Origin: Armatimonadia bacterium
GTDB taxonomy: Bacteria; Armatimonadota; Zipacnadia; Zipacnadales; JABUFB01
Assembly: GCA_039679385.1 (NCBI GenBank)
Contig: JBDKVB010000147.1
Span: forward strand, 1-50,992
Direction of reading: 5' to 3'
Length of the DNA: 50,992 bases
Shown here: piece after piece, positions 11,933 to 15,429 of the stretch
Numbering within the stretch: the stretch's first letter is position 1
Layout: each line of letters starts with the position of its first letter
The notes under the pieces: model-generated
What the model saw: only the letters and a program-made list of their open reading frames with translations
Databases searched by the model: none
Told to the model about the DNA's origin: nothing
Position numbers and translations under genes: made by a program

Positions 11933-12268
11933 CTACTTGATGTCCTCTTCCTCTTCCTCCGTGCTCACGACAGGCCTGGGTGGCTCCTCAACCGGATTGG
12001 CGAACCGGTTGTAGGTGCTCGCTACGAAAAACCCGAAGGCCAGGCCCACGAGGAAGGCCAGGATACCGCCCCAGATGCCGCCGAAGAAGCCCACATAGTA
12101 GCCGGGCAGCGCGTAGTCCAGGGCCCGTGTCATCGGCGCGAACCACCCGGCGTGCTCGCCGAAGGGTCCGCCCGTCAGTCCGTTAAGCCAGGTGATGGCC
12201 GTTACCAGGATCGCCCACAGGCTCCCCAGTCCCACGCCCAGAGCAGGCGGGTTCAGCTTTGCGTACAT
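11933..12268 (-). CDS. Small two-helix membrane protein, holin-like
   Basis: 111 residues with hydrophobic segments at about 11-30 (GVGLGSLWAILVTAITWLNG) and 57-86 (YYVGFFGGIWGGILAFLVGL), and an acidic tail EEEEEDIK. Proteins with this GYYxGxxG...GxxxGFxxG design are often labelled bacteriophage holin in databases, but no phage genes surround it and a lytic role is unproven. GGGGGTGA precedes the ATG. It follows the candidate selenoprotein gene by about 70 nt on the same strand, and ends in a clear terminator, so the two probably form one small transcript. Confidence 0.7.
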   Translation of the reverse strand: MYAKLNPPALGVGLGSLWAILVTAITWLNGLTGGPFGEHAGWFAPMTRALDYALPGYYVGFFGGIWGGILAFLVGLAFGFFVASTYNRFANPVEEPPRPVVSTEEEEEDIK

Positions 12269-12337: not shown

Positions 12338-12520
12338 TCACTTCGCACTGCCCAGACCGCCGGCGCCGATCAGAGCGCCCGGAAGGCCGAACACAACCAT
12401 GGCAACCCACGGGTTGCTGGTCATGGGTCACCCGCCGCCGGCGCAGGTGCTCAGGCGGTTCAGCCCAAGACCAACGAGCGCACCAATCACGGCCCCAAGA
12501 ACCGGCTGCCACCAGGTCAT
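12338..12520 (-). CDS. Candidate selenoprotein: 60-residue two-helix membrane protein with in-frame TGA (DUF6132-like)
   Basis: Not visible as a normal ORF because codon 31 (12430-12428) is TGA. Reading through gives 60 residues: helix 1 (about W4-L23), a loop STCAGGG-U-PMTSNPW, helix 2 (about V39-L56), stop at 12338. The loop reproduces the CxxGxCP[IM]TSNP motif that I recall from small DUF6132-like membrane proteins, with the TGA exactly at the second Cys (C26-x-x-G29-x-U31-P). AGGAG lies 7 nt before ATG 12520. A hairpin meeting bacterial SECIS rules follows the TGA at once. Without read-through there would be two tiny peptides, one per helix (30 and 28 residues), the second starting two codons after the TGA. 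No sel genes are in the window, so Sec insertion is inferred. Upstream neighbour is a VOC gene, downstream a holin-like gene. Confidence 0.6.
12397..12426 (-). promoter_or_regulatory. SECIS-like hairpin directly after the in-frame TGA
   Basis: On the minus strand, starting 2 nt after TGA: lower stem CCATG/CATGG (5 bp), a 4-nt one-sided bulge ACCA, upper stem GCAACC/GGTTGC (6 bp), apical loop CGTG. Distance from TGA to loop is 16 nt and G is the second loop base. These values fall inside the published consensus for bacterial SECIS elements as I recall it (loop with G in the first two positions, spacing about 16-37 nt). Confidence 0.5.
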
Positions 12521-12561
12521 CTCCAGTCTCCTCGCCTTCGCCGACCCTCACCAGGACAGCA

Positions 12562-12951
12562 CTACTTCAGCATCGGCTCCGGCCGGTTGATGAGCTGCAG
12601 CGGAACGCCCCAGGGGTCCCGCAGCAGGCACAGCACGAAGCCTTCCGGCGTCGTCTCCACACCATCGACGGGCTGAGCGCCGGCGGCGAGAAGGCGCTCG
12701 CGATCACCCGCGACGTCCTCAGACCAGAAGGCAATATGCAGCGTCAGCGTGTGCATCGCCGCGTAGTCCGGCGGCGGAGCGACCGGGTTGTTGTAGATCT
12801 CCAGCATGACCTGCGCACCCGGAAGCTGGATGAAGTGCGTGTAGGGCGCTTCGCTCATGGACTTCAGAACCGTGCAGCCCAGGTTCTTGGAGTACCAGTC
12901 CGCAGCGCCGACCGGATCGGGATGGGTCAGGGCAATATGCTCGATGGTCAT
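12562..12951 (-). CDS. VOC family (glyoxalase/bleomycin-resistance fold) protein
   Basis: 129 residues from ATG 12951, which has AAGGAG about 6 nt upstream; the longer frame to 12972 is unnecessary. One vicinal-oxygen-chelate module pair is visible: IEHIALTHPDPVGAADWYSKNLG at the start, LHIAFWSEDV in the middle and LCLLRDPWGVPLQLI near the end. Metal ligands typical of this fold would be the first His, the mid His and a late Glu/Gln. Such proteins include lyases, isomerases and dioxygenases, and the substrate cannot be predicted here. It lies between the heat-shock cluster and the candidate selenoprotein on the same strand. Confidence 0.85.
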   Translation of the reverse strand: MTIEHIALTHPDPVGAADWYSKNLGCTVLKSMSEAPYTHFIQLPGAQVMLEIYNNPVAPPPDYAAMHTLTLHIAFWSEDVAGDRERLLAAGAQPVDGVETTPEGFVLCLLRDPWGVPLQLINRPEPMLK

Positions 12952-12993
12952 GGGAACTCCTTGCGTACTCACAGAATGGTTGCGTGGCTCGGC

Positions 12994-15429
12994 CTAACCG
13001 CTCTCGCCGACCACGAGCCGTAGCTTGATCTGGTCACCCTCGGCATCCACCTGCACCATATCGCCGTCGCCGAATTCGCCCCGCAGGATGGCGCTGGAAA
13101 TGGGGTTTTCCACCTTCTTCTGGATGACCCTTCGTAGCGGGCGCGCGCCGTACATCGGGTCATAGCCCTCCTGGGCCAGCAGCTTCCGCGCCGCCTCTGT
13201 CGCCTTCAGCGACATCCCGCGCTGCTTGAGCGCCTCGTTCACCCGCTTCAGCATCAGGTCGACGATCTGCCGAATCTCGGCCTCGGTGAGCGCGTGGAAC
13301 ACGATCACCTCGTCGATCCGATTCAGCAACTCCGGCCGGAACACATCCCGCAGCGAGGCCACGACCTGCTCGCGCATCTCCTCGTAGTTGTCGCGCCGCT
13401 CTTGCTCTGTCCACTCCGGCTTCGGCGGTTGGATGTACTGGCTGCCGACGTTCGAGGTCATGATGAGCACGGTGTTGGCAAAGCTCACCACTCGCCCGGT
13501 GTTGTCAGTCAGCCGCCCGTCCTCCAGCACCTGCAGCAGGATGTTGAACACGTCGGGATGAGCCTTCTCGATCTCGTCGAGCAGGATGACCCGATAGGGT
13601 CGCCGTCGCACCGCCTCGGTGAGCTGACCGCCCTCCTCATACCCCACATATCCCGGAGGCGCACCGATCAGCCGCGAGACCGCATGGCGCTCCATGTACT
13701 CGGACATGTCGATGCGAACCATGGCGTCTTCGTCGTCGAACATGAACTCGGCCAGCGCCTTGGCAAGCTCCGTCTTCCCCACACCGGTCGGCCCGAGGAA
13801 GATGAAGGAGCCGATGGGCCGCCGCGGGTCACTCAGCCCCGCACGCGATCGACGGATGGCCTCAGCGATGGCCTGCACCGCCTCATCCTGACCCTTCACT
13901 CGCTCGTGCAGTCGGTCCTCCATCTGCAGCAGCTTCTGGGCTTCCTGCTCAAACATCCGCGTCACGGGAATACCTGTCCACTGCGACACGATGGCCGCGA
14001 CATCCTCACCATCCACGGTATCATCCAGTTGCTCCACACCAGCCCATTTGTCCTCGGCGAGCGGCAGCTTCTTCTCCAGTTCGTCGATGCGCTGCTTGAT
14101 CCGCTCGGCCTCGGCGTAGTTCTGGCGATCCACAGCCTCCTGGCCCTGGTCGGTGAGCTGCTTGATCTCCTGCCGAAGTGCTTCCGGCCGAGGCGGCAGG
14201 TTGTAGGTGTCAATGCGCAGCTTGCTGGCGGCCTCGTCGATGAGGTCGATCGCCTTGTCCGGCAGGTGCCGATCCGGGATGTACCGGTTCGAGAGTTCGG
14301 CGGCCGCCTTCAGCGCATCGTCGGAGATCTTGACCCCGTGATGCTCCTCGTAGCGGGACCGCAGGCCCTCCAGAATCCGCACCGTATCTTCCACGCTGGG
14401 CTCGCCGACAAACACGGGCTGGAAGCGCCGCTCCAGCGCCGGGTCCTTCTCGATGTTCTCGCGGTACTCGTCGAGCGTGGTCGCGCCGATGCAGCGCAGC
14501 TCACCCCGAGACAGCGCGGGCTTCATCATGTTCGAGGCGTCCATGGCGCCCTCGGCAGCCCCTGCGCCAACCACCGTATGGATCTCGTCGATGAACACGA
14601 TGATCTGGCCCTCGGCGGCTCGAATCTCGTCGATGACGCCCTTCAGCCGCTCCTCGAACTCGCCTCGGTATTTGCTTCCCGCGACCATGCCGCCCAGGTC
14701 CAGCGCCAGCACCTGCCGTCCCTGCAGCATGTCGGGAACCTGGTCCGCCACGATCGCCTGCGCCAGTCCTTCGACGATGGCCGTCTTCCCCACACCCGGG
14801 TCACCAATCAGCACCGGGTTGTTCTTGGTGCGCCGCGAGAGAACCTGGATGACCCGCTTGATCTCCTCTTCACGACCGATGACCGGGTCCAGCTTGCCCT
14901 CTTTCGCAAGCTCGGTGAGGTCCCGCGAGTAGCGCTTGAGCGCCTCGTACTTGCTCTCCGAGCCGGCGTCGGTGACCTGGTGGCTGCCACGAATTCCTTG
15001 CAGCGCCCGGAGCGCTCCTTCCGTGGTGACGCCGGCGCCGTTGAGGATCCCGGCAGCGTCGGTCTGGCCGTCCTCAAGGATCCCCAGCAGCAGATGCTCG
15101 GTGGCGATGAACTGGTCGCCGAAGCGCTGGGCGATCTCCCAGGCCTTGTCGAACACCCGGCTGATCTGCGGGGTCACGTAGATCTGCGCCGTGTCCCCGC
15201 TGACCTGAACCTGTGGCCGCCGACCGAGGCTGCGCTCAACCTCTGCCGTGATCTTCTTGACGTCGGCGCCGCAGGACTGCAGGATGCGGTTGGCGACACC
15301 GCCTTCTTGCTCAAGCATGGCCAGGAGCAGGTGCTCGGTATCCAGTTGGTTGTGCCGATACCGCTGCAGAATCTGCTGACTGGCTGCGACTGTCTCCTTG
15401 GATGCATTCGTAAAGCGTTCGAAATCCAT
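12994..15429 (-). CDS. Clp family AAA+ ATPase (ClpC/ClpB-like)
   Basis: 811 residues. Double Clp-N repeat at about 1-150 ([27 protein letters not shown]), first AAA+ module with Walker A GDPGVGKT near 210-217 and IVFIDEIHT, a short middle region, second AAA+ module with Walker A GPTGVGKT near 545-552 and [14 protein letters not shown], then a ClpB-D2-small domain. The middle region is only long enough for a ClpC-like M-domain and contains a UVR-like segment ([21 protein letters not shown] split near 430-455), so it is ClpC-like rather than true ClpB with its long coiled coil. It is the last heat-shock gene of the minus-strand set, behind hspR, where ClpB is more usual. It likely unfolds or disaggregates proteins after stress. 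Confidence 0.88.

Follow-up and report, generated by a model that had tools for sequence, protein, structure and literature searches.

The window analysed here, a 50,992-nucleotide stretch of DNA from an Armatimonadia bacterium, carries on its minus strand a very short gene whose reading frame is interrupted by one in-frame UGA. The features of this locus are the following:

12994..15429, minus strand: ClpB-type chaperone, upstream of the putative selenoprotein gene (named from its sequence, without a Pfam scan)
12562..12972, minus strand: protein of the glyoxalase/bleomycin-resistance superfamily, directly upstream of the putative selenoprotein gene
12528..12532, minus strand: Shine-Dalgarno sequence AGGAG, 7 nt ahead of the ATG (direct reading)
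12338..12520, minus strand: putative selenoprotein gene for a DUF6132-related membrane protein of 60 aa and two helices, containing a single in-frame UGA
12443..12445, minus strand: codon of Cys26, the presumed resolving thiol of a CxxxxU motif (role inferred)
12428..12430, minus strand: UGA codon 31, very probably read as Sec; aligned with Cys in homologues, mostly from SelB-less genomes
12392..12425, minus strand: candidate bacterial SECIS hairpin, CAUGACCAGCAACC-CGUG-GGUUGC(CA)UGGUUGUG (RNA structure; not significant alone)
11933..12268, minus strand: membrane protein of 111 aa, the next gene downstream, not assigned to a family (sub-threshold match to DUF5676 only)

The frame extends from the ATG at 12520-12518 to a terminal TGA at 12340-12338 and comprises 60 codons plus the stop; with UGA read as Sec (U), its product would be MTWWQPVLGAVIGALVGLGLNRLSTCAGGGUPMTSNPWVAMVVFGLPGALIGAGGLGSAK. 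Direct reading bore out the original prediction as to the 60-codon minus-strand frame, its ribosome site, motif and coordinates. The loop C26-A-G-G-G-U31-P-M-T-S-N-P lies between two hydrophobic stretches, so that the two membrane helices claimed on either side of the C26-x-x-x-x-U31-P-x-TSNP loop are indeed predicted. An AlphaFold model based on 24 aligned members places helices at residues 4-26 and 37-52 with U31 in the linking loop; its confidence is low (mean pLDDT 64.5), which makes the model too uncertain for a fold search, and searches of PDB and PHROGs retrieved nothing. The gene is overlooked by standard gene finders because its internal 'stop' codon is very probably read as Sec.

A homologue of the window gene is present in all four genomes of its own family (three genera), each with exactly one internal TGA in the same column. 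A profile built from these four genomes and then run on 291 Armatimonadota genomes retrieved 52 homologues, in which the aligned column is occupied by TGA in 38 and by a Cys codon in 14. The original prediction had placed the TGA at a motif cysteine and proposed to look for Cys homologues at codon 31; the 14 Cys forms align there. Outside the phylum, the degenerate DNA pattern of the commonest subgroup was scanned over 84,980 species and identified TGA-bearing relatives in Deltaproteobacteria-type, Syntrophaceae and Pseudomonadota-labelled MAGs, in Eremiobacterota and in Anaeromyxobacter, and in the class of the member L103 the gene occurs in 7 of 8 genomes with an internal TGA in all 7. Eight further matches to the pattern lacked flanking homology and were rejected as members, being reused as negative controls, and L026 was set aside as a weak match inside a long permease-like frame. 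Of the claim of a candidate new selenoprotein the selenoprotein reading is supported, but what had been taken for a single new gene is instead a family distributed over several phyla.

Codon-position bias persists past the TGA in the larger groups of relatives: differences at codon positions 1/2/3 amount to 14/0/41 % in the f29 subgroup and 13/7/38 % in the delta subgroup; the bias is weaker in f1 (29/28/47, n=4) and little of it remains in the PAVP group (45/31/47), perhaps as a consequence of RNA constraint there. The second thiol differs between subgroups, with CxxxxU in the window family, UxxxC in the GSTUGxxCNP type and UxxC in the UxSCxxPAVP type, and many members lack the first Cys and have one at U+3 or U+4 instead. 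The position of Sec is thus constant while that of its partner Cys moves.

The original prediction also called for a search for sel genes in the same genome, and the whole set (selA, selB, selC and selD) was found. In this assembly, 96.6% complete, selB scored 325 bits, above the curated cut-off, selA 555 bits and selD 356 bits, and a tRNA-Sec with anticodon TCA was detected by both Rfam and ARAGORN directly adjoining selD. The selD gene (L018, C74:7274-8194, near locus position 2390) carries a single in-frame TGA of its own and is itself a selenoprotein gene; the codons around this TGA, SCAGUAAKLG, fit the UxxK motif given for SelD in a 2026 review (PMC13188914).

Across the phylum SelB was found above cut-off in 141 of the 291 genomes, i.e. 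about half, and its distribution follows the form of the gene: it accompanies 34 of the 38 UGA forms vs 1 of the 14 Cys forms (Fisher p=4.7e-8). The same holds outside the phylum, with SelB in 11 of 12 true TGA members vs 1 of 8 chance pattern matches (p=8e-4). On the tree the Sec/Cys label switches at least 6 times, 3 of these forced by well-supported branches, and within family f45 a Sec form with SelB (L037) has sister rows (L038, L046) with Cys and without SelB above cut-off. A phylogeny-controlled sign test of Sec against SelB rests on only 3 independent pairs and gave p=0.25. In four UGA-form genomes of the phylum no SelB was detected above cut-off; two of these assemblies are 64% (G097) and 80% (G223) complete, and the other two (G190 and G269) about 95%. 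A further Sec form, L116 from the Anaeromyxobacter sp. RBG_16_69_14 MAG, has a hairpin with a GGUC loop and no SelB above cut-off in the MAG, which reflects either an incomplete assembly or loss.

Downstream of the UGA the window transcript can form a hairpin of 14 bp with a two-base bulge, whose apical loop CGUG (12411-12408) begins 16 nt past the UGA. The bacterial SECIS model requires a G within the first two loop positions at 16-37 nt (PMC13188914, section 5), and the window hairpin satisfies it, with G in the second position of a loop at 16 nt. Its stability did not exceed that of synonymous-codon shuffles (z=0.1; z=-0.6), and neither per-sequence folding energy nor a search for the bSECIS shape as published separated Sec from Cys forms. 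The signal emerged at the level of groups, picked after inspection of the sequences: consensus hairpins departed from synonymous-codon shuffles in PAVP (z=-17), delta (z=-9), a mixed 7-row Armatimonadota subgroup (z=-7.5), f29 (z=-5 to -6) and f1 (z=-3.2), whereas the same test found no consensus hairpin in two Cys subgroups (z=+0.8, -1.2). Covariation, scored in two alignments, was not reached by any of 500 shuffles and was far lower with slid partners; paired changes occur on both sides of the stems, e.g. the third base of Asn/Lys codons (C/U/G) changing with that of Gly codons (G/A/C). Relatedness among rows inflates the shuffle tests, although it is retained in the slid-partner controls. 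The loop of the PAVP stem, 20 nt past the UGA, consists of three bases, in most cases GGU or GUU; the f29 apical loop, AUYUAC, has no leading G; and two members, L116 and L123, have GGUC apical loops, which we take to resemble the E. coli fdhF element. When 34 CNP-type Sec genes were aligned together, essentially no shared structure emerged, because each subgroup has a hairpin of its own.

Could the UGA nonetheless be an ordinary stop, the 30-residue peptide being the product and the downstream half a chance frame or the remnant of a decayed gene? UGA is a normal stop in the source genome, where it also terminates the window gene itself, and standard gene callers would follow this reading. However, in-frame conservation of the second half extends over genera and phyla, Cys homologues span the column and codon-position bias persists beyond it, so that we consider termination at codon 31 highly improbable. 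The alternative of two separate peptides had been judged less likely in the original prediction because the motif would be split, and relatives ending at the TGA, which had been named as a refuting outcome, did not turn up. In-frame conservation would also be explained by read-through alone, with the UGA decoded as some other residue by stop-codon suppression or in a partly reassigned code. Against this stand the Cys that aligns in UGA-less relatives, the company of SelB, the restriction to a single UGA per gene and the covarying downstream RNA structure confined to Sec forms, and read-through as a residue other than Sec can hardly be upheld. It is also conceivable that the UGA serves as a selenium sensor, a 30-mer being made without selenium and the full helical hairpin with it, and that attenuation of downstream genes is its function. 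A UGA in mid-protein ties expression to selenium by nature and the window gene lies within a run of genes on the same strand, but relatives without SelB keep Cys forms devoid of any switch and the family members have no downstream gene in common; this remains a very unlikely reading. The reading that we favour is that of a selenoprotein gene in which UGA 31 would be decoded as Sec by SelB and tRNA-Sec, aided by the hairpin just downstream, an interpretation that we regard as very probable even though its support is entirely comparative and no biochemical proof is at hand. The product would be a membrane helical hairpin whose loop bears a selenol and usually one nearby Cys, the family position being occupied by Sec where an organism has the Sec machinery and by Cys where it does not.

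Resemblance to DUF6132 proteins, invoked in the original prediction, holds through relatives only. By itself the window protein matches PF19628 (DUF6132) with 13 bits, below the Pfam gathering cut-off of 23.2, while its close relatives L028, L029 and L027 exceed it (30.8, 31.7 and 24.8 bits), as does the Cys form L035; it is in turn homologous to L023 and L024 (E=7.7e-12 and 1.4e-11), both above the cut-off. On account of its own score we term it DUF6132-related rather than a member. The Pfam model alone retrieved the family in 6 of the 291 genomes vs 52 homologues by the family-specific profile. PF19628, a Cys form of unknown function, shares with our family a length of about 60 residues, two glycine-rich helices and a loop of the CxxGxCPxxxNP type, but it lacks the Sec that our family has at the second Cys.

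The 2026 review catalogues 119 prokaryotic selenoprotein families (PMC13188914, Table 1). DUF6132 is not among them, although prior listing in the groundwater survey cited there as ref. 66 is not excluded, and neither these 119 families nor the selenoprotein models of NCBIfam 20 include a protein of two helices that carries GSTUGxxCNP, GGGUPMTSNP or UxSCxxPAVP. Ten family members gave no match above cut-off against NCBIfam, and in the literature searched DUF6132 was not discussed (a single unrelated text match). The family is therefore uncatalogued in the sources examined. It has in common with catalogued selenoproteins a single UGA, SelB and tRNA-Sec, Cys homologues, a downstream hairpin and a redox-type motif, and departs from them in its UxxxC and CxxxxU spacings, the usual ones being UxxC and CxxU. 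Sec forms of MerT (PF02411) and YeeE/YedE (PF04143), listed in the same review (PMC13188914), are likewise membrane proteins with Sec in a conserved thiol motif, but they differ in size and topology and Pfam scans detected no sequence similarity to them.

The gene neighbourhood bears on function. About half of the CNP-type members adjoin a thioredoxin gene (confirmed as PF00085 in two examples and recognized by motif in the rest): the Sec gene lies a few bases after it in all 8 f29 genomes, six delta MAGs, G269 and G270, whereas 5 of 7 CNP-type Cys members precede it, in the reverse order. No thioredoxin neighbour was found in the window's own family or in the PAVP subgroup. In two other genomes of the window family clpB also lies upstream of the selenoprotein gene (L029/L084, L027/L092), and in L084 the gene stands behind clpB and ahead of a CIRCE-like repeat and groES/groEL. 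This inverted repeat, TTAGCACT...GAGTGCTAA, is found less than 200 nt past the selenoprotein stop (L028, L029; L084) and ahead of groES/groEL, which places the gene between clpB and the chaperonin operon. Other neighbours across the family include FmdB zinc ribbons, an OsmC protein (L085), a YgaP-type rhodanese with membrane helices (L105) and a metal-sensitive repressor together with a thioredoxin (L093).

Since CNP-type Sec and Cys members alike adjoin a thioredoxin gene, whichever of the two genes comes first, the simplest inference is that the protein is a small redox relay in the membrane, which would use its thiol or selenol to exchange electrons (or else sulfane sulfur) with thioredoxin. 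Only the gene neighbourhood and the motif speak for this role, to which we give about an even chance; it may not hold for all members, given the lack of a thioredoxin neighbour in the window family and PAVP. Thiol relays such as DsbD/CcdA have six or more helices and two Cys in the membrane; our family, with only two helices, would likewise take electrons from thioredoxin and deliver them into the membrane or to its other side, a functional analogy only, which is untested. On the other hand, the selenoprotein could take part in membrane handling of sulfane sulfur or selenium or of metals, as in YeeE/YedE or MerT, rather than in electron relay with thioredoxin. The OsmC, rhodanese, repressor-plus-thioredoxin and FmdB neighbours would fit such a role, as would the existence of Sec forms of both proteins (PMC13188914), but plain thioredoxin is by far the commonest neighbour and Pfam scans revealed no resemblance to YeeE or MerT; we retain this role as a possible explanation, though not the favoured one. 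The window's own family has chaperone genes (clpB, groES/groEL) as neighbours, so that its members may act in the quality control of proteins during redox stress. The fullest version of our proposal, to be taken as tentative and somewhat short of an even bet, is that of an unlisted multi-phylum family of membrane hairpins of 50-60 residues, with a loop selenol, a resolving thiol that has moved among at least three positions and electron exchange with a dedicated thioredoxin, which would make it the smallest transmembrane selenol relay described.

The bacterial selenoproteome thereby gains a family and not just a gene, in mostly uncultured bacteria in which annotation truncates or misses such genes, and DUF6132, of unknown function, becomes a testable redox candidate with a named reactive residue and a likely partner in thioredoxin. 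Besides, the family has sister pairs that differ naturally in Sec or Cys, and two covarying hairpins at different positions after the UGA, which offer material for the study of how bacterial SECIS elements evolve within coding sequence.

Two departures from the common architecture were also observed. The variant loops NCGTU (CxxU) and CKGGTLPU occur in L077 (G103) and L042 (G105), respectively, and suggest, as far as can be read from sequence, that the partner Cys may have moved more than once. In L096 and L094, which belong to an f19 and an f17 genome, the frame is open for about 100 residues upstream of the UGA, which suggests that the N-terminus is extended and includes one more membrane helix.
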